Shown: one piece after another, positions 16,661-48,995 of the stretch | How the letters are laid out: the number at the start of each line of letters is the position of its first letter | Numbering within the stretch: position 1 is the stretch's first letter | Assembly: GCA_938045295.1 (NCBI GenBank) | Contig: CALINO010000038.1 | Span: 1 to 53,288, forward strand | DNA length: 53,288 nucleotides | Origin: an uncultured Arenicella sp. | GTDB taxonomy: Bacteria; Pseudomonadota; Gammaproteobacteria; Arenicellales; Arenicellaceae | Direction of reading: 5' to 3' | Position numbers and translations under genes: made by a program | The notes under the pieces: model-generated | Databases searched by the model: none | Told to the model about the DNA's origin: nothing | What the model saw: the letters and a program-made list of their open reading frames with translations, nothing else

Positions 16661-17533
16661 TCACTTATTTTGCGAGCGTTGCGTTTGCGCAACCTCAGAA
16701 ACAATTTTCCACTGCCCCTGCTCTTTAAGCATAATCAGGCGTTTCTGAGTAACGTCTTTGTACGTTGGAGACTGATAGGTTTGTTTAAATTGCACCAAAC
16801 TCCGTTGAGTTTCGCTATCAAACTCAACCTCCACGTTTTCTACTGTTAATTGAACTTCGGAATCTGGCTGTAAGCGTTCGGCACGTTCGGCCTTCCACTG
16901 CTCCAATGATCGCCCACTTGCCGGCTTAAATTGTTCGCTGTAGTAGGCAAAATATTGGTAAGCATCACCACGAATCCAGGCTTGCCGCCAGCCATCTATT
17001 TGATAAGCCAGCTCAGCTTCGAGCAATGACATTTCAGCCCCATTACCTTCGGCCAACAACTCATCCACTTTGGCTTGCTTACGAGCATTAAGCGCTTGCA
17101 TGTCTGCCAGCCGGGCTTTCTCAAGCCTAACTTGCTTAGCCAACTGAGAATCTGACAAGGTTTCTTCGGCCGGCCGCGTTTCATCATAAGGCAACACATT
17201 GGCAACTACCTTAGGCTCGTCATCTATCCTAAGCGTGGGTTCAATAGGCTGTTCATTAAGCTGACCAGCCGGCGCTTCAACGTCAGTCGCATCGGCCAGC
17301 GGCTCACTTGCTTCTTGCCGGTACGGGTTAATACCCACAGACGAGGGTTGCCCATTTGGACTTTGGTTGAGGCGCTGGTCTTGATTACGGTATTGGCCTT
17401 GATCAACGTCTGACGTTGTGTCCGGGCGAGTAAAGGTAATGGTGGGCGCGTTATCTTCTTTCCACAACACGCCCGTTATGGCGCCCAGCAACACCAACAC
17501 AATTAATACAATGTATTTAGAGTATGTTGTCAT
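16661..17533 (-). CDS. Membrane-anchored protein with C-terminal NTF2-like domain
   Basis: A 290-aa protein with one N-terminal membrane segment (residues about 7-24), a long Pro/Asn/Gln-rich periplasmic linker (25-125), a short helical stretch (about 125-175) and a C-terminal domain (about 180-285). The latter has the pattern DGWRQAWIRGDAYQYFAYY...EQWKAER and ends GQWKIVSE. The same domain closes the L,D-transpeptidase at 36420-37706 and the TPR protein at 37713-39185, so it probably belongs to the NTF2-like group found on some L,D-transpeptidases (Cds6/YafK type, from memory). Role unknown. A 20-bp palindrome lies 50 bp upstream of the start. Confidence 0.75.
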   Translation of the reverse strand: MTTYSKYIVLIVLVLLGAITGVLWKEDNAPTITFTRPDTTSDVDQGQYRNQDQRLNQSPNGQPSSVGINPYRQEASEPLADATDVEAPAGQLNEQPIEPTLRIDDEPKVVANVLPYDETRPAEETLSDSQLAKQVRLEKARLADMQALNARKQAKVDELLAEGNGAEMSLLEAELAYQIDGWRQAWIRGDAYQYFAYYSEQFKPASGRSLEQWKAERAERLQPDSEVQLTVENVEVEFDSETQRSLVQFKQTYQSPTYKDVTQKRLIMLKEQGQWKIVSEVAQTQRSQNK

Positions 17534-35158: not shown

Positions 35159-36349
35159 ATGAAAATAAATCACCTCTTTCTTTCGCTGTTAGCGGCGGTC
35201 ATGCTAACAGCGTGCGAACCATCGCAGCCTCCCGCAACGCAACAAAAAAGCGACAGCGCAGAAAAAAAATCACCACCACAAGAGCCCAATCCAAGCGCCA
35301 ATGCAGCAACAGAACAAGCGCTAGAAAGCACTCAAGCATTGACCGACAACGTGTCGAACAATGGTGCGGCGGATGAGCCAAATTCTATTGAGTCAGAATT
35401 ATCGCAACAAAATGACAATGCACAATCACCGCAAACTGGCGCCGGCGATTCAATCATAGAATCAATCGGCTTTGCCGATGCTGAAACCGAGACGCCTGAC
35501 AGCGAATCAGAGCAGCAATACCAGCCTCACTGCAATACCTTTGCATCCCAAGCTAATTCAAAACAAAACACGGAAAAGGCGGCCTTTTGTGAAAAAATTT
35601 CCAACCGCCTTGCTAGTGTTAGCTTGTCAGGATGCATGAGCGCTGATCTAGTACCTTCAGGCTGCTCATCAATTGCCGGCACACCATTAATGATTACAGA
35701 GTTTGCGCCTCTTGAGAAAAAAGAACCTCTGGGGCGCGTACTTATTATTGGCGGCATTCATGGCGACGAACTCACGTCGGTCAGTGTCACCTTTCGCTGG
35801 ATAGAAAAACTCAACAAATACCATTCTGGGCTTTTTCATTGGCACATTATTCCGAGCATGAATCCCGATGGCTTACTGAAAAAAGCCGCCGAAAGAACCA
35901 ATGAAAACGGCGTGGATTTAAACAGAAATTTACCGTCAAACGATTGGACTAAAAATGCACTGGCGTATTGGGAGTCAAAAAGCGGCAAAGACCCAAGAAA
36001 ATACCCAGGAAAAACACCCAACAGCGAGCCAGAAACACACTGGCTGGTGGATGAAATTCAACAATTCAAACCTGATGCCATCATCTCAATACACGCACCT
36101 TATGGGGTGGTGGACTTTGATGCGCAACAGCTCAATACCGCACCTAAAAGTTTGGGCAAACTACGCCTTAATTTATTGGGCACTTACCCCGGCTCGTTAG
36201 GCAACTACGCAGGCATTAATAAAAACATACCCGTCATAACCTTGGAATTGCCACACGCCTGGGAAATGCCCAGCGAAGCAGAAACTGATTTGATTTGGCA
36301 AGACATTGTAAGCTGGCTGAAGAAAAACCTACCCGAGCGCAACGGTTAA
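35159..36349 (+). CDS. M14-family (MpaA-like) zinc amidase lipoprotein
   Basis: A 396-aa lipoprotein: signal with lipobox LTAC (Cys near residue 19), a long low-complexity Ser/Asn/Gln/Glu linker (20-125) and an M14 domain. Zinc ligands appear in GGIHGDELTS (His and Glu near 200) and IISIHAPYG (His near 311); substrate-binding NPDG and GVDLNRNLP, and catalytic Glu in ITLELPHAWE, are present. The NPDG/GVDLNRN set resembles MpaA, which cuts the gamma-D-Glu-mDAP bond in murein peptides. MpaA is normally cytoplasmic, so an envelope-anchored relative is unusual. Convergent with the L,D-transpeptidase gene, suggesting peptidoglycan work. Confidence 0.85.
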   Translation: MKINHLFLSLLAAVMLTACEPSQPPATQQKSDSAEKKSPPQEPNPSANAATEQALESTQALTDNVSNNGAADEPNSIESELSQQNDNAQSPQTGAGDSIIESIGFADAETETPDSESEQQYQPHCNTFASQANSKQNTEKAAFCEKISNRLASVSLSGCMSADLVPSGCSSIAGTPLMITEFAPLEKKEPLGRVLIIGGIHGDELTSVSVTFRWIEKLNKYHSGLFHWHIIPSMNPDGLLKKAAERTNENGVDLNRNLPSNDWTKNALAYWESKSGKDPRKYPGKTPNSEPETHWLVDEIQQFKPDAIISIHAPYGVVDFDAQQLNTAPKSLGKLRLNLLGTYPGSLGNYAGINKNIPVITLELPHAWEMPSEAETDLIWQDIVSWLKKNLPERNG

Positions 36350-36419
36350 AGTTAACTCCCTTAGCTGTTTGTAAAACGCGGCTTGCAACACGCAACTAGG
36401 CTTGCAATACAGGCCCGGC

Positions 36420-37706
36420 TTAACCTTCGTAGAGTATCTTCCAAACGCCACTTTCATTGCGCTTCCAGTACTGCTGTTTGCGCACCACACCTTCATAGTT
36501 ATTGCTTAAATAACTCTGCGTATAGTTAACCACAAACATGTCGTTTTCTCCTGGGTAGGAAAATAAATCGTTCACCTTAAGGTCAATTTGAATAAAGGTT
36601 TTAGATTTATTCACGGCGCGCTTTTTTTGCGCCCAACTGGAAAAGCTAGCGGCGCCGAAATTCAATTTGTTTTGCGTATAGTGCGATAAATAGGCCGACG
36701 TATCCAAACTTTCCCAATCGGTTTTCCATTTGTCCAATATGGCCAAAAACTCGGTTCGGCGCTGAACCAATTGATCTCGATCAACCCAATTAATTCGATC
36801 ACTTAAAATAACCGGAGTGCGAGCTTCAGCACTCACAAATTGAGCCGCATCAAGCAAATCATCGTTGCTTAACACAAAACAGCCTTCGCTTGTCCATGGC
36901 GCTCTGGCGTAGGTCGTAGACGGCGTGCCATGCAACCAAATGCCATAACCGGTTCTTTTCAAAAAGCGGTCATAACGATTGGGGTAATTAACCGGGAAAG
37001 CGCCTTTACCGTATAAGTCTGGCAGCCTTTTGCCCTCGATATATCGATTAACATGGTAAACGCCAACTGGCGTCTTGTTGTCGCCTTCGACTTGCTTGCC
37101 GTACCCAGCGGAACCTACCGACATATAATAATCGCGTACCAGCTCTGGACGGCCATCGTTATTTTCATACACGTACAAACGACCCTGCTTCAGATCAGCC
37201 ACCAACACATAAGGGTGATCGCCAATCTCAATCAACGATTCGGGCAGTTTCTGATGAGCGTTGACGTCTTGTTGCTGATGGTGCTCCCAACGTACTTTCA
37301 ATTGGTGTGTTAACCCGGCCAATTCTTTTTCAGGCAACGGAGAGCCTGCACCAACATCTGAAAAACCGCCGCCCATGGCCTTTAATATATCCGCTCTTAG
37401 GAAATGACCAATTCGGCTCTTAGGAAATTCTTGAATATGCGCATTAACAAGCGCCAACGCTGAACTCAACTCGCCTGCTTGTAACTTGCTCAACACTTCG
37501 ATAATCGCCGGTTCATATTCGCGATTTGCTTCTAACGCATGCACACTTTTAGATAAGGCAAGCGCGGCTGACAAGGCGGGCTGTTCAACGCTTGTTTGCG
37601 CAACACCATGCCCACCCACAGTAAGCAGCAGTGGAAATAGCAATGCATTACGCGCTATGCGTTGCGCAAAACGAGTTTTTTTCAAACTAACTACGCCGTT
37701 ATTCAT
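36420..37706 (-). CDS. L,D-transpeptidase with C-terminal NTF2-like domain
   Basis: A 428-aa exported YkuD-domain enzyme. An N-terminal signal (NALLFPLLLTVGGHGVA) is followed by a helical region (45-150) and the catalytic domain (about 165-295) with HGTPSTTYARAPWTSEGCF, giving His and the active Cys near residue 271. The last about 110 residues (WKTDWESLDTSAYLSHY) form an NTF2-like domain shared with two other proteins here. Overall plan resembles YafK-like L,D-transpeptidases, which include enzymes that cross-link peptidoglycan and some that release lipoproteins; which applies is not evident. Begins 6 nt after the upstream TPR gene. Confidence 0.9.
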   Translation of the reverse strand: MNNGVVSLKKTRFAQRIARNALLFPLLLTVGGHGVAQTSVEQPALSAALALSKSVHALEANREYEPAIIEVLSKLQAGELSSALALVNAHIQEFPKSRIGHFLRADILKAMGGGFSDVGAGSPLPEKELAGLTHQLKVRWEHHQQQDVNAHQKLPESLIEIGDHPYVLVADLKQGRLYVYENNDGRPELVRDYYMSVGSAGYGKQVEGDNKTPVGVYHVNRYIEGKRLPDLYGKGAFPVNYPNRYDRFLKRTGYGIWLHGTPSTTYARAPWTSEGCFVLSNDDLLDAAQFVSAEARTPVILSDRINWVDRDQLVQRRTEFLAILDKWKTDWESLDTSAYLSHYTQNKLNFGAASFSSWAQKKRAVNKSKTFIQIDLKVNDLFSYPGENDMFVVNYTQSYLSNNYEGVVRKQQYWKRNESGVWKILYEG

Positions 37707-37712
37707 AATTCA

Positions 37713-39185
37713 TCACAAGCTAACAATTCTTTCACTAATAATCTTAGCCGACGACCAATCTTGGTTCTCAGAAATAGCATAAGAAATTTGCTTCACAATA
37801 GAATCATCTAATGTATCAGAACGATAGTTTTGCGTGAAAGTAACCGCAAAGCCTTGAGTTGTTTTCTCCACATTGAAGTTGCTAACCGTTACCTGAATGA
37901 ATTTTTTATTCGTCAAACGAACACGGCGCTGATCTGCCCACGTTTTGTGGCTTTGATTTTCACTTGAGGAGTAATCACTCACATAATAACTAAGATAACG
38001 CGGCACATCTTGAGATGACCAAGAGCTGGCCCAGGCTTGCACCAATGCGATGGCGGTCTGCGTTTGATTTTCGCTCAAAGGCTGTTTTTTAGGTGGCTCA
38101 GTGCTCACTTGAGGAGCAATCGCCGGCGTGGTGCTTGCCGGTGTGGTGGTTAATGGCGCCTGAGTACTATTCTCATTAGAAGCCACCACCTGTGCAGCCG
38201 CCGTTTGCGCGGCCACAAGCTGGCGTGTCAAATCTTCATTTTGCGCACTTAACTCAGTCAACTGCTTCTGCAAGCCCTGTAATGCAGATTCAGAATTACC
38301 CAACTCAATACGCATTTTAGCCAACAAATCGCTTTCTGCTTTTTCCGCTTGGCTTTGCATGTTCGACAGCTGAGCTTGTGCCAATTCAGCTTGTTGGGCT
38401 TTGGCATCAAGCTGGGTCTGCATGGCTGAAAGTTGCTGCTGATACTCTAACTTAGAGGTTTCCGCCGATTCCTGAGTTTGTTGCAGTTCAACCTTTAACT
38501 TTTTAAGCTGCGGCTCAATCGCTACCGCCGCCGATTGCAAATTTTGCTGTTGCTCTAAGGCATCGGAAAGCTTTTTAACTTGTTGCGTAAGCTCAAAATC
38601 CGTCGCCAGCTGGGCGGATGTAGGCAGAGACACTTGCTCTGCAGTCACCTCACCCGATTCTAATGCGTTTTTATAGGCTTGCGCCGCCAAGGCTCCGTGC
38701 ACTTTATTAATGCTGTCAAACAACAGCTGAGTACTTTGATTGGCCCGAGTACCTTGAGCTAAGGTGCTACGCGCCTGCTCTAAATCACCGCGATTAGCGT
38801 AAGCCGCCGCTAGGTTCACATAGGGCTCAACAAAATTAGGAAACTCTTCGGTCAATGCCTTATACATTTCAATGGCTTGATCTTCATCACCTTGCACAAG
38901 CTTCTGATTAGCTTGTGTAAAACGAGCACTGAGATCTTCACTCTGAGCTTGACTTAATGTCACAGGGTTTGAAGCGGCTTGCGCCAATGCAGCAAAGCTG
39001 CCCGAAACTATTCTTTTCGCTCCTTGCTCAATATCAGTGCTTGCCAGTTCTGACGTGCCATTCTCTGACACTTGCGATTCAGCATTCTGTGAATCTGAAT
39101 TTGGCGAGTCACCCAATGGCAACAACCACACAGCTAATAAGCCTAATGCAGCGACTGCCAGAATATTTTTTGGTATTTTTCCCAT
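37713..39185 (-). CDS. Membrane-anchored TPR/coiled-coil protein with NTF2-like domain
   Basis: A 490-aa protein with one N-terminal membrane helix (ILAVAALGLLAVWLL), TPR-like helices (about 95-150: DQAIEMYKALTEEFPNFVEPYVNLAAAYANRG, written in part), a long Gln/Ala/Lys coiled coil (about 195-325), a Thr/Pro linker and a C-terminal domain beginning VQAWASSWSSQDVPRYLSYY that matches the end of the L,D-transpeptidase. It probably scaffolds or regulates that enzyme in the periplasm. Same strand, 6 nt upstream of it. Confidence 0.78.
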   Translation of the reverse strand: MGKIPKNILAVAALGLLAVWLLPLGDSPNSDSQNAESQVSENGTSELASTDIEQGAKRIVSGSFAALAQAASNPVTLSQAQSEDLSARFTQANQKLVQGDEDQAIEMYKALTEEFPNFVEPYVNLAAAYANRGDLEQARSTLAQGTRANQSTQLLFDSINKVHGALAAQAYKNALESGEVTAEQVSLPTSAQLATDFELTQQVKKLSDALEQQQNLQSAAVAIEPQLKKLKVELQQTQESAETSKLEYQQQLSAMQTQLDAKAQQAELAQAQLSNMQSQAEKAESDLLAKMRIELGNSESALQGLQKQLTELSAQNEDLTRQLVAAQTAAAQVVASNENSTQAPLTTTPASTTPAIAPQVSTEPPKKQPLSENQTQTAIALVQAWASSWSSQDVPRYLSYYVSDYSSSENQSHKTWADQRRVRLTNKKFIQVTVSNFNVEKTTQGFAVTFTQNYRSDTLDDSIVKQISYAISENQDWSSAKIISERIVSL

Positions 39186-45783: not shown

Positions 45784-46344
45784 TTAATTGGCGGTTAATT
45801 TGTCTCTAAAGCGCTGAGCGGCCTCAGAATTACCCATAGCATCGTGCGCATTTGCCATCAAATACCAATTTCTGCGGCGCAATTGTTTATTATCAGCTGA
45901 CAGGGTATTGGACTTTGCCGCTACTTGAATCGCCCCTTTCCAGTCGCCTTGCTCGTACTTGATTTCCGCCAAGTTAGACCACAGCTGTGCATTGCGAGGC
46001 TCAATACGCAAAGCCCGCTCTATGGAACCCGATGCGCGATCCCAATTGCCGGATTGGCGATCTTGCTGCGCTGACGCCATTAACCGGCTAACCACCGGCG
46101 AGGCCTGTTTTGAGTCCTCCATTTGCTCTACCGACAAGTTAGGCTCGTCAGGCAGGGGCAAGGCTTGCCCATCCACCACCGCCCGCTCTTCAACCACGGC
46201 GGGTTCTTGCGTGTGCACATCAATTGTTTTGGTATTAATACAGGCAGGCAACACAACACACATTGCCAACACCGCAATCTTGGCATTAATACTAGGTTTG
46301 GCTTCGATACAACTGTCAGCTTGCGTATTCATTGACTCACTCAT
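45784..46344 (-). CDS. TPR lipoprotein beside PBP1b (LpoP-like candidate)
   Basis: A 186-aa lipoprotein with a long signal ending in lipobox LPAC (VLAMCVVLPAC), a disordered acidic linker (40-80) and TPR helices (about 85-185: WDRASGSIERALRIEPRNAQ, LAEIKYEQGDWKGAIQVA). Small TPR lipoproteins encoded next to PBP1b in Pseudomonas (LpoP) activate that synthase from the outer membrane; the same position and layout here suggest this job, but sequence identity was not checked. It lies 56 nt after mrcB on the same strand. Confidence 0.78.
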   Translation of the reverse strand: MSESMNTQADSCIEAKPSINAKIAVLAMCVVLPACINTKTIDVHTQEPAVVEERAVVDGQALPLPDEPNLSVEQMEDSKQASPVVSRLMASAQQDRQSGNWDRASGSIERALRIEPRNAQLWSNLAEIKYEQGDWKGAIQVAAKSNTLSADNKQLRRRNWYLMANAHDAMGNSEAAQRFRDKLTAN

Positions 46345-46400: not shown

Positions 46401-48995
46401 TTAACCGAAAATTCGTTTCCATAACGATTTTTTCTTCGGTCGACGCTTAATAGGCTGCTCTTCATTAGCCGGTTCAAAATGTAACTGCTCGTCGTTACTC
46501 TCATCATCATACTGGAAATAATCCACGCACGAAATATTACTCAAATCAAACGAATCAAATAACAAAGGCAGTGCACGCGATAGTTGGCAGTCTTTACTGA
46601 ACGGTTCAGACGAGTAGCGCACTTGTTTTGACACAATTCGCTCACTGTAGCCAAGCTCTAAACGCTGCAAAGGTAACTGACGCATGATGTTAGACCACAC
46701 TCTGGCAGCGCCGCTTGCGCCAGTTAAGCCGGTTGACTTGTTATCGTCGCGCCCCACCCAAACCACGGTTAAATAATTACCACTAAAACCAGCAAACCAA
46801 CTGTCTCGGTAATCGTTCGTGGTGCCGGTTTTACCCGCCAAACCATAATCGTACTTAAAGCCTGACAGCACAGCCCGCCCGGTGCCATTACGAATAACGT
46901 CTTGCAAGGCATAGTTAATTAAATGGGTGTACTCAGGCTCGACCACTTGCTCAATATCCAAAGCATAACGCGACAACGGCATGTCTTCTTTGCTCAGTAC
47001 TGAGCGCACCCCTTTCACCGGCGTTTTAAAACCACCAGAGGCAAGCCCTAAATAAAGCTGACTGACGTCCATCACGCTCATGGGCACGGCGCCCAACAGC
47101 ATTGATGGCAATTCATTAATAGGCCGTTGATACCCCATGCGCTTGAGTGTGTCGGTGACGTTGGCTAAACCCAACGCCATACCCAGGTTTACGGTCGCCA
47201 AGTTGTACGACTGAGATAGGGCATCAACCATCATCACATCGCCGTGTGGTTTGCCGTCGTAATTTCTGGGTCGCCAATCGGGGCTGCCTTTTTGCGACAC
47301 CGTGATCGGCATATCACTAATGATAGAGGCCAATGAATATTGCTCTGGAGACTCTAACGCCGTTAAATACACAAACGGTTTTAACAACGAACCAACCGGG
47401 CGACGCGCCTTTAATGCTCGGTTATAACCGGCAAAGCTTGGGTTGCGGTCACCCAACATACCCACCACTTCGCCGTTATCTGTGCGCAACACCACCGCCG
47501 CCGCTTGCAGACTTCCACGTTCAATATCACGTTGTTGCTCAATTTTTGCCAACTCAGAAGAAACCACCGTCTCTAACACCGACTGAATTCGGGGGTTCAA
47601 TGTGGTGTGTATTTGCAAGCCTTCGCTCATTAAGTCATCTTGCTGATAACCGTCTTTCAAGTTCTCTCGCACATAGCCCAAAAAGCTTGGGTAGGAAAGC
47701 GTGGCCGCTCGGCTGGCAACGGGGCTTAACTTAAGTGCTTGTGAGCTGGCAATATCAAATTGGTGCTGATCGATCTTGCCGCTATCAAGCATGGCTGTTA
47801 ACACCACGTTGCGCTTTTTCATTACCCTTTCTGGGCGCTTTAACGGGTTGTAACGGCTCGGTGCGTTATTAATGGCAACCAAGGTGGCCATTTCATTAAG
47901 CGACAACTCATTCAATGGCCGCCCGTAATAATACCGGCTTGCCAACCCAAAACCGTGAATAGCGCGGTTGCCGGCCTGCCCTAGATTCACTTCATTAATA
48001 TAAGCTTGCAGTATTTCATCTTTGCTGTAATGAAACTCAAGCAATACGGCCAAGATCATTTCAACCAGTTTGCGCCGCACGCTGCGCTCAGACGTCAAAT
48101 AATAATTTTTGACCAATTGCTGAGTTAATGATGAACCACCGCCGCTAACCCGACCTGATTTTACCGCTTGAAATAACACACGAGCCAAGCCCCTGAAGTT
48201 GACGCCAATATGCGAATAAAACTGACGGTCTTCGTAGGCAATTAAGCCATCAATCAATGGCTGCGGCACATCTTCCAAGCGCACCAAGGTGCGATCTTCA
48301 TGCTGCATCGGCGATACGCTGCCAAACAAACGGGGCTCTAAACGAACGATTTCTGTTTGCTCGGCCTGCTTCAACGCATTAATAATTTCGATTGCCGCTA
48401 CGCGATTGTTTCTAATTGCTAATTTAATGACTTGTTGTGGGCGCGCTTCGTCCCAAAAGCGGAACGCACGCTGATGAATCGCCAACTCCAAAGAATCTAA
48501 GCGATAGGTGCCAACACGGTTCACGTCTGGGCTTTTTAGATAGCCCAGCTCTTGCAGCTCTGTTTCAACCAGCTGCGCATCAAAGTCTTGCCCTAGATAT
48601 AACTCCAAAGGTCGAGTGTAAACGTGTGCAGGCAACGCCCACTTTTGCCCTTCAAACTGCTTGCGTATGGTAACGTCCAAATACGCGGTGTAACCCAAAA
48701 ACAAAACAAAAACGGCCAATGCCGCACGCCAAAAAACAAACTTAAAGCCCGACCAGAACCAACGCACGGTACGCTTTGGCACCGAATTCGTTGAACCACC
48801 TGCTCGCCCACCAACCGACGCCTGAGCCGTTACTTTTTTGGTCGCTGCTTTTTTAGCCGTTTTCTTTTTTTTACGGCCACCGCCGGACGAAGCTGCCGCG
48901 CCTTTCTTATTCGCCACTTTTTTATTCGCTTTATTCGCCGTTTTAGGCGTCGCAGGCTTTTTTGTTGCTTTTTTACGAGTCTTCTTCTTTGTCAC
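46401..48995 (-). CDS. mrcB: Penicillin-binding protein 1B with Lys/Ala-rich cytoplasmic tail
   Basis: Bifunctional peptidoglycan synthase, 864 aa. After a cytoplasmic tail of about 80 residues rich in Lys, Ala and Thr (TKKKTRKKATKKPA...), there is one membrane helix (about 88-110), a UB2H-like region, glycosyltransferase GT51 (EDRQFYSHIGVNFRGLAR, GGGSSLTQQLVKNYYLT) and transpeptidase with SLLK (GSLLKPFVYL), SYN and KTG (AGKTGTTNDYRDSWF). Start is GTG 48995. The tail resembles histone-H1-like sequence and is longer than usual. A TPR lipoprotein follows. Confidence 0.95.
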   Translation of the reverse strand: MTKKKTRKKATKKPATPKTANKANKKVANKKGAAASSGGGRKKKKTAKKAATKKVTAQASVGGRAGGSTNSVPKRTVRWFWSGFKFVFWRAALAVFVLFLGYTAYLDVTIRKQFEGQKWALPAHVYTRPLELYLGQDFDAQLVETELQELGYLKSPDVNRVGTYRLDSLELAIHQRAFRFWDEARPQQVIKLAIRNNRVAAIEIINALKQAEQTEIVRLEPRLFGSVSPMQHEDRTLVRLEDVPQPLIDGLIAYEDRQFYSHIGVNFRGLARVLFQAVKSGRVSGGGSSLTQQLVKNYYLTSERSVRRKLVEMILAVLLEFHYSKDEILQAYINEVNLGQAGNRAIHGFGLASRYYYGRPLNELSLNEMATLVAINNAPSRYNPLKRPERVMKKRNVVLTAMLDSGKIDQHQFDIASSQALKLSPVASRAATLSYPSFLGYVRENLKDGYQQDDLMSEGLQIHTTLNPRIQSVLETVVSSELAKIEQQRDIERGSLQAAAVVLRTDNGEVVGMLGDRNPSFAGYNRALKARRPVGSLLKPFVYLTALESPEQYSLASIISDMPITVSQKGSPDWRPRNYDGKPHGDVMMVDALSQSYNLATVNLGMALGLANVTDTLKRMGYQRPINELPSMLLGAVPMSVMDVSQLYLGLASGGFKTPVKGVRSVLSKEDMPLSRYALDIEQVVEPEYTHLINYALQDVIRNGTGRAVLSGFKYDYGLAGKTGTTNDYRDSWFAGFSGNYLTVVWVGRDDNKSTGLTGASGAARVWSNIMRQLPLQRLELGYSERIVSKQVRYSSEPFSKDCQLSRALPLLFDSFDLSNISCVDYFQYDDESNDEQLHFEPANEEQPIKRRPKKKSLWKRIFG

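Follow-up and report, generated by a model that had tools for sequence, protein, structure and literature searches.

We analysed a stretch of 53,288 nucleotides (GC 47%; hereafter the window) of contig CALINO010000038.1 from an uncultured Arenicella sp. (assembly GCA_938045295.1: 92 contigs, 2.99 Mb, 99.4% complete), and the subject here is a trio of genes at positions 35159 to 39185, all three with intact open reading frames. The first, on the forward strand (35159..36349), encodes an M14 zinc peptidase related to MpaA and predicted to be a lipoprotein (PF00246, 1.9e-17). It is convergent, at a distance of 70 nt, on a gene on the reverse strand (36420..37706) for a protein with YkuD and NTF2 domains (hereafter the LDT protein), predicted from its domains and from sequence and fold matches in the Protein Data Bank (PDB) to be an L,D-carboxypeptidase that shortens tetrapeptides to tripeptides. 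Six nt upstream of the LDT start lies the stop codon of the third gene (37713..39185, reverse strand), which forms a two-gene unit with the LDT gene; its product, membrane-anchored or secreted, combines tetratricopeptide repeats (TPR), a coiled coil and an NTF2 domain and is predicted, from these domains and from TPR chains in the PDB, to be a peptidoglycan-binding partner of the LDT protein. The trio is flanked by a YihA/EngB GTPase gene on one side and by polA on the other. An original prediction for this locus had described an exported M14 enzyme with a lipobox, convergent to a two-gene unit, and this description stands: the lipobox LTAC and a hydrophobic N-terminus are present and the strands are + - -. 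The M14, YkuD and TPR domains are all present; overlooked was the NTF2 domain of the Cds6_C type in both the LDT and the TPR proteins. The trio is real, and the co-conservation counts given below place its arrangement beyond chance.

Domains and catalytic residues of the three proteins

The LDT protein carries a YkuD catalytic domain (36807..37214, reverse strand; PF03734, 5.8e-19) with H259-G260 and C276, followed by a Cds6_C NTF2-like domain (36426..36749, reverse strand; PF24125, 5.3e-24); it may be noted that the Pfam domain matches of all three proteins are above the Pfam cut-offs. In an alignment of 74 sequences, made up of the window and 73 of 80 examined loci (L033, L060, L064, L095, L096, L101 and L109 omitted), H259, G260 and C276 are invariant (74/74). 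The residue two positions after the cysteine (C+2), V278 in the window, is Val in 39 sequences, Ile in 16, Ala in 8, Ser in 6 and Thr in 5, and Arg in none of the 74. This position is occupied by Arg in most transpeptidases, by Ala in Csd6 and Pgp2 and by Val in Bd1075 (PMC8938487). A PDB search by sequence gave Bd1075 (2.4e-34), Pgp2 (1.1e-25 and 5.6e-25) and Csd6 (2.5e-23), with DpaA (entry 8ikr) as a distant match at 3.6e-4. An AlphaFold model calculated from the 74 sequences (pLDDT 88, pTM 0.83) was used for a fold search, in which Bd1075, Pgp2 and Csd6 came out on top with Z scores of 26.8, 25.9, 25.6 and 24.7 over 259-267 residues in both domains, while the next matches, all of them without NTF2, were B. 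subtilis YkuD (Z 17.5), DpaA (15.2) and other L,D-transpeptidases (14.8 or less). Among the 50 fold matches listed, only Bd1075, Csd6 and Pgp2 covered both domains.

Also the pocket of the Pgp2 NTF2 domain has its counterpart: Y233, K257, K307 and E324 correspond to Y339, K362, K410 and E427 in the window, of which the last three are found in 74/74 sequences and Y339 in 68/74, and F242 of Pgp2 is replaced by L348. According to passages of PMC8038945, Pgp2 with substituted pocket residues does not restore helical shape and its NTF2 domain contributes to sacculus binding; the passages of PMC4599014 give Csd6 carboxypeptidase activity only. In its N-terminal part the AlphaFold model of the LDT protein shows four predicted helices, which fall within residues 46 to 146. 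Since Csd6, Pgp2 and Bd1075 are the top structural matches and the C+2 Arg is missing, the LDT protein is most likely, by sequence and model, an L,D-carboxypeptidase of the Csd6/Pgp2/Bd1075 type acting on tetrapeptides to give tripeptides, and not a 3-3 cross-linker. At one further locus (L018 1501-2631, congener G002) the LDT frame is interrupted by a single in-frame TAG.

The M14 protein begins with a signal sequence (35159..35215, forward strand) that ends in the lipobox LTAC at residues 16-19, visible directly in the sequence (MKINHLFLSLLAAVMLTAC-E); the Glu at position +2 presumably directs it to the outer membrane by the +2 rule. A low-complexity linker of about 120 residues follows (35216..35575, forward strand), which is predicted to be disordered, every ten-residue block of residues 21-130 having a mean pLDDT below 60. 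The next segment (35588..35635, forward strand) lies between C144 and C159, two cysteines that are invariant in 35/35 sequences and may form a disulfide; C144 precedes the part aligned with MpaA, which starts at residue 155 by fold and at residue 170 by sequence. The catalytic core (35759..36247, forward strand) contains H201, E204, H312, N255, R256 and E363, invariant in 35/35 sequences, and R246, present in 34/35 with one X, the alignment consisting of the window and 34 loci with a decayed remnant at L035 omitted. By homology, H201, E204 and H312 would be metal ligands, R246, N255 and R256 would form the carboxylate/oxyanion side and E363 would be the general base.

Peptidase_M14 is the sole Pfam domain of this protein above the cut-off, together with an overlapping AstE_AspA match. 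Its nearest solved sequence relative is MpaA (PDB, 4.5e-17, 26% identity over 211-215 aligned residues), and the NCBIfam equivalog model for MpaA gives 96.1 bits, which does not reach the cut-off of 157. The fold is that of an ordinary M14 enzyme, MpaA (Z 22.4 and 22.2) being found alongside pancreatic-type carboxypeptidases (up to 23.9). In a sample of 299 genomes of the phylum, the window's M14 family occurs at 1e-40 or better in 79 genomes, apart from an MpaA-like band of 13 genes at 1e-21 to 1e-28. From these values we place the M14 protein in an exported family that is distinct from MpaA and related to it, and predict a D,L-carboxypeptidase/amidase cutting the bond between gamma-D-Glu and meso-diaminopimelic acid (mDAP). 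A hydrophobic N-terminal stretch was found in 50 of 50 M14 frames with a choosable start (53 frames in total), a generous count because the start-choosing script favoured hydrophobic starts. A strict lipobox is present in 10 of the 13 M14 proteins of the window's order that have the N-terminus in view; an eleventh (L036) lies on a longer N-terminus than the one chosen by the script, and two more proteins keep the Cys at that place. Outside the order there is one possible lipobox among 37 (L118), the other regular-expression match (L068) being the conserved C144. The catalytic motif starts at residue 197 in the window and at 123-274 in the eleven lipobox forms, and in the forms without a lipobox at 82-121 in 35 of the 36 where the motif was found, with L117 at 165. 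The export signal therefore appears to be general to the family, and lipidation and the long linker nearly confined to the window's order.

The TPR protein has a single TPR region (38736..38927, reverse strand; PF14559 or TPR_19, 6.1e-9, residues 98-151, with PDB TPR chains matching from residue 87), a coiled coil recognised by eye, and at the C-terminus a second Cds6_C NTF2-like domain (37731..38045, reverse strand; PF24125, 3.9e-13). The pocket of this domain consists of Y397, R420, K465 and E485, the last three being conserved in 16/16 aligned sequences and Y397 in 15/16; in an alignment of the NTF2 domains of the window, R420 occupies the position of a Pgp2 Lys. As a prediction, the role that suits this protein best is that of a partner of the LDT protein which binds peptidoglycan, and the two may be in contact. 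Of the TPR/coiled-coil anchor that was originally predicted the TPR part is confirmed, but the protein is more than a plain anchor, since the residues of a peptidoglycan pocket are present in its NTF2 domain.

Conservation of the gene arrangement

Two samples were taken from the window's own order (109 genomes) and class (369 genomes). In the order, the LDT protein was found in 69 genomes, the TPR-protein query in 66 and the M14 protein in 28, and all the 28 genomes with M14 also have LDT. On the basis of coordinates, 21 of these 28 have the M14 and LDT genes as convergent neighbours, one is split by contig ends, and in 6, all of genus g8, LDT lies elsewhere; in these six (6/6) the M14 gene adjoins a TPR-NTF2 gene, with LDT away. 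In five g8 loci (L126, L127, L128, L130, L131) M14 faces the TPR-NTF2 gene directly, and G033, from the family shared with g8, has the trio plus a second LDT.

The LDT gene was confirmed in genome contigs at no fewer than 586 stretches, of which the best 80 from named genomes were examined. Upstream of LDT and on the same strand, a TPR-family gene was found in 76 of these 80 loci by phmmer and in 78 by profile. Of the 78 genes, 73 have both TPR and NTF2, 4 have the NTF2 part only, being cut by a contig end, and one (L048) has the TPR part only; in the remaining 2 loci the distance between the LDT start and the end is 2 or 137 bases. A convergent M14 gene stands beside LDT in 34 of the 80 loci in intact form and in one (L035) as a remnant. 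The 3′ ends of the M14 and LDT genes overlap in 15 of these 35 loci (L046, L055, L057, L059, L063, L068, L074, L076, L077, L080, L082, L084, L087, L100, L103), by 16 nt in 12 cases and by 13 nt in 3, with sense codons in the overlap, so that the ends of the two proteins are encoded antisense to each other.

In the class sample M14 was found in 38 genomes, LDT in 60 and both in 33, where they are neighbours in 25 cases from 15 families, convergent in all the 25. The Fisher test for this co-occurrence gives p 2e-25, uncorrected for relatedness, which such tests ignore; counting changes of an M14 label on the LDT tree is the better control. By a quick method there were 4 changes on the tree compared with 24.5 in shuffles, and none of 500 shuffles was as low (L060 and L064 were omitted from the tree as they lie at contig ends, and 6 of its 79 rows were left unlabelled for flanks shorter than 1500 bases). 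This suggests that the trio is old and was mostly inherited vertically. Betaproteobacteria and one clade of gammaproteobacteria lack M14, for which loss is the simplest reading, on a tree whose root is not fixed. Co-occurrence in related genomes, which had been proposed along with the original prediction as its check, is thus borne out.

In the phylum sample 92 genomes gave M14 matches; once the 13 with a match in the MpaA-like band had been set aside, M14 was counted in 79 genomes, LDT in 85 and both in 51 (Fisher p 1e-15, uncorrected). Six LDT loci from outside the class were fetched, and 5 have a TPR-NTF2 gene upstream, with none in view at L158. In family f211, at 12 of the 18 M14 loci examined (L160, L169-L171, L173, L174, L176, L178, L179, L182, L184, L185), a neighbour on the same strand gives an NTF2 match but shows no YkuD motif; all five such neighbours that were scanned contain Cds6_C and SPOR and no YkuD. 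Because LDT, TPR-NTF2 and NTF2-SPOR neighbours were all observed, the association of the M14 family with NTF2-domain proteins appears to take more than a single form, but it does not hold everywhere.

A probable two-step trimming pathway and its alternatives

We consider it rather probable that the locus is a periplasmic module which shortens the stem peptides of peptidoglycan in two steps. The YkuD and NTF2 protein would take the terminal D-Ala off the tetrapeptide to leave a tripeptide ending in mDAP, and the M14 enzyme would then cut the gamma-D-Glu-mDAP bond of the tripeptide, the resulting dipeptide stem being unable to enter further cross-links. In the window's order the M14 enzyme would be tethered to the outer membrane, with the long flexible linker giving it reach to the sacculus, and the TPR protein may bind peptidoglycan through its own NTF2 pocket while its TPR and coiled coil place the L,D-carboxypeptidase. 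The module would likely serve to soften or pattern the wall locally, affecting shape or elongation. A precedent exists in Campylobacter, where Pgp2 yields tripeptides that the M14 enzyme Pgp1 converts to dipeptides, as given in passages of PMC3310789 and PMC8038945; in the former the authors of Pgp1 state that MpaA likewise makes dipeptides from tripeptides. Passages of PMC4220969 have Arg94 and Asn93 of Csd4 binding the free mDAP carboxylate. The window M14 retains the counterparts of Asn93 and Arg94, namely N255 and R256, and would therefore be expected to depend on what an L,D-carboxypeptidase produces, which leads to the two-step model. In favour of the model we also count the family assignment of the LDT protein, the conserved catalytic set and N-terminal export stretch of M14, and the genomic linkage described above, including the arrangements in g8 and f211. 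The part of the original prediction that saw peptidoglycan editing at this locus is supported by homology.

Several observations weigh against this pathway. MpaA is an enzyme of free peptides, so the kinship of M14 with it counts on the other side, and a PDB search with the M14 sequence at E up to 1 found no match to Csd4 that would link it to Csd4/Pgp1. M14 is also dispensable, being missing from 27 of the 60 LDT genomes of the class; of these M14-less LDT loci 20 were fetched, and the upstream TPR-NTF2 gene is full in 11, partial or weak in 5 and lacking in 4. At the threshold used, M14 occurs without LDT in 5 genomes of the class. One genome of the window's own genus has LDT and TPR intact beside a decayed M14; this remnant (L035 7626-7930, also L012) lies at the syntenic place and has an in-frame stop and one metal ligand lost. 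Outside the class, M14 and LDT are on different contigs or far apart in 47 of the 48 genomes that have both, three having them on one contig and only one of these within 6 kb, and no NTF2 neighbour of M14 was found in the 8 loci from out-of-class families other than f211. The overlap of the 3′ ends may also partly lock M14 and LDT in adjacency. Finally, in the passages of PMC4398505 a mutant of a Csd6-like protein in Aeromonas changed in cell length with its initial muropeptide profiles unchanged.

The first alternative is that of periplasmic salvage, whereby the substrates of M14 are free peptides that the wall has released, like those of MpaA in the cytoplasm, and its position near LDT reflects a scavenging route instead of sacculus editing. 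It would agree with MpaA as the nearest solved sequence relative, and with the gene content: only one other M14 gene was found in the genome and no cytoplasmic MpaA, the other gene (L155 949-3828, frame of 1494 aa) encoding a large secreted carboxypeptidase-like protein. Also a recycling route exists, as the second YkuD gene of the genome adjoins a beta-N-acetylhexosaminidase gene, away from the trio. Its product (180 residues, no evident signal peptide) is ElsL-like with 177 bits at a cut-off of 270, and as it is the sole other YkuD protein, no exported one was found in the genome besides the window LDT. Yet M14 is linked to three kinds of NTF2 protein (LDT, TPR-NTF2 and NTF2-SPOR), a domain that in Pgp2 helps to bind sacculi, and the lipid tether with its long linker in the window's order would suit a wall-bound substrate. 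We therefore regard salvage as unlikely.

A second alternative takes the LDT protein as DpaA-like, freeing outer-membrane proteins from mDAP and not removing D-Ala. The best NCBIfam model for it is indeed DpaA/LdtF, and YafK-like enzymes also have a C+2 residue other than Arg (PMC8938487). However, the NCBIfam match is weak (7.4e-6) and its 25.3 bits are far under the cut-off of 365, and the Z of 15.2 for DpaA compares with 24.7-26.8 for the carboxypeptidases with NTF2, partly because DpaA has no NTF2; we find this reading quite improbable. The originally predicted activity, in which an L,D-transpeptidase and the M14 amidase would cut and re-link mDAP to form 3-3 cross-links or protein attachments, draws on a YkuD fold that transpeptidases share (B. 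subtilis YkuD among them) but is very improbable given the absence of C+2 Arg in all 74 sequences, the restriction of two-domain fold matches to carboxypeptidases among the 50 listed, and the carboxypeptidase-only activity in the passages on Csd6 (PMC4599014).

Returning to two-step trimming, Csd6/Pgp2/Bd1075 and Csd4/Pgp1 are shape determinants in bacteria with helical or curved cells. The LDT type described here is present at a minimum of 586 places, the best 80 of which include Zoogloea, Azoarcus, Aromatoleum and Azospira, all of which are described as rods. In a literature search on the cell shape of Arenicella, five papers contained the name Arenicella xantha, and none of the ten listed by a wider search mentions the genus. 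The NTF2 domain is said in passages of PMC8038945 to appear restricted to helical-shaped cells. As a tentative proposal, which we put below an even chance, this may be a third, independently assembled wall-trimming pathway of beta- and gammaproteobacteria and further proteobacterial classes, in which an NTF2-guided L,D-carboxypeptidase, an exported D,L-carboxypeptidase derived from MpaA and NTF2 adaptors (TPR-NTF2, NTF2-SPOR) would produce dipeptide stems and patterned walls in non-helical bacteria as well. The trio is a testable candidate for stem-peptide trimming in these bacteria and for the target that NTF2 recognises. Searches of an open-licence set of papers brought up the known work on the Csd, Pgp and Bd1075 proteins, besides reviews and unrelated papers, and no trio of this kind is described in the title or the beginning of the abstract of any of those listed.

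Elsewhere in the window, a third Cds6_C NTF2 protein (16661-17533, reverse strand; 7.1e-19, residues 175-280), with pocket residues W, Y, K and E kept, is encoded between a RarA-like ATPase gene and an ilvD-like gene, the latter recognised by eye. A TPR lipoprotein gene (45784-46344, reverse strand) adjoins a class A penicillin-binding protein gene (46401-48995, reverse strand), both again by eye, a pair that we take to resemble LpoP-PBP1b of Pseudomonas. Scans for promoters (4 sites, 7.1 in shuffles) and terminators (6 sites, 6.3 in shuffles) showed no excess.

Comparison with known systems

Csd6 of Helicobacter pylori, Pgp2 of Campylobacter jejuni, Bd1075 of Bdellovibrio bacteriovorus and the window LDT protein all have a YkuD domain with a Cys/His/Gly triad followed by NTF2, except that Bd1075 has Ala where the others have Gly. 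They are also alike in the C+2 residue, which is not Arg, and in the fold across both domains, and the window protein shares the Y, K, K and E pocket of Pgp2. It differs from them in its longer helical N-terminus, in having a TPR-NTF2 gene as partner and often an M14 neighbour, and in its occurrence, which takes in betaproteobacteria, gammaproteobacteria and further classes. With MpaA, which is cytoplasmic and has no export signal, the window M14 shares the catalytic core; its family is set apart by the export signal, two invariant Cys, the N-terminal extension and a separate score band. With Csd4 and Pgp1 it shares the M14 class and a proposed second step after Csd6/Pgp2. Csd4 was not among the 50 fold matches listed for the M14 model, and as described in passages of PMC4220969 it has three domains, a C-terminal Ig-like domain among them, and Gln46 as a metal ligand, whereas His201 is found in the window protein, which shows no Pfam domain beyond those named above. 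A gammaproteobacterial Csd6 homologue, AHA0618 of Aeromonas caviae, affects cell length and motility, and HP0518 (Csd6) has extra domains in comparison with it; the passages of PMC4398505 from which this is taken contain no trio around AHA0618. The pathway proposed for the window would thus run parallel to Csd6-Csd4 and Pgp2-Pgp1, with the difference that its genes are linked and that its M14 enzyme probably derives from MpaA.

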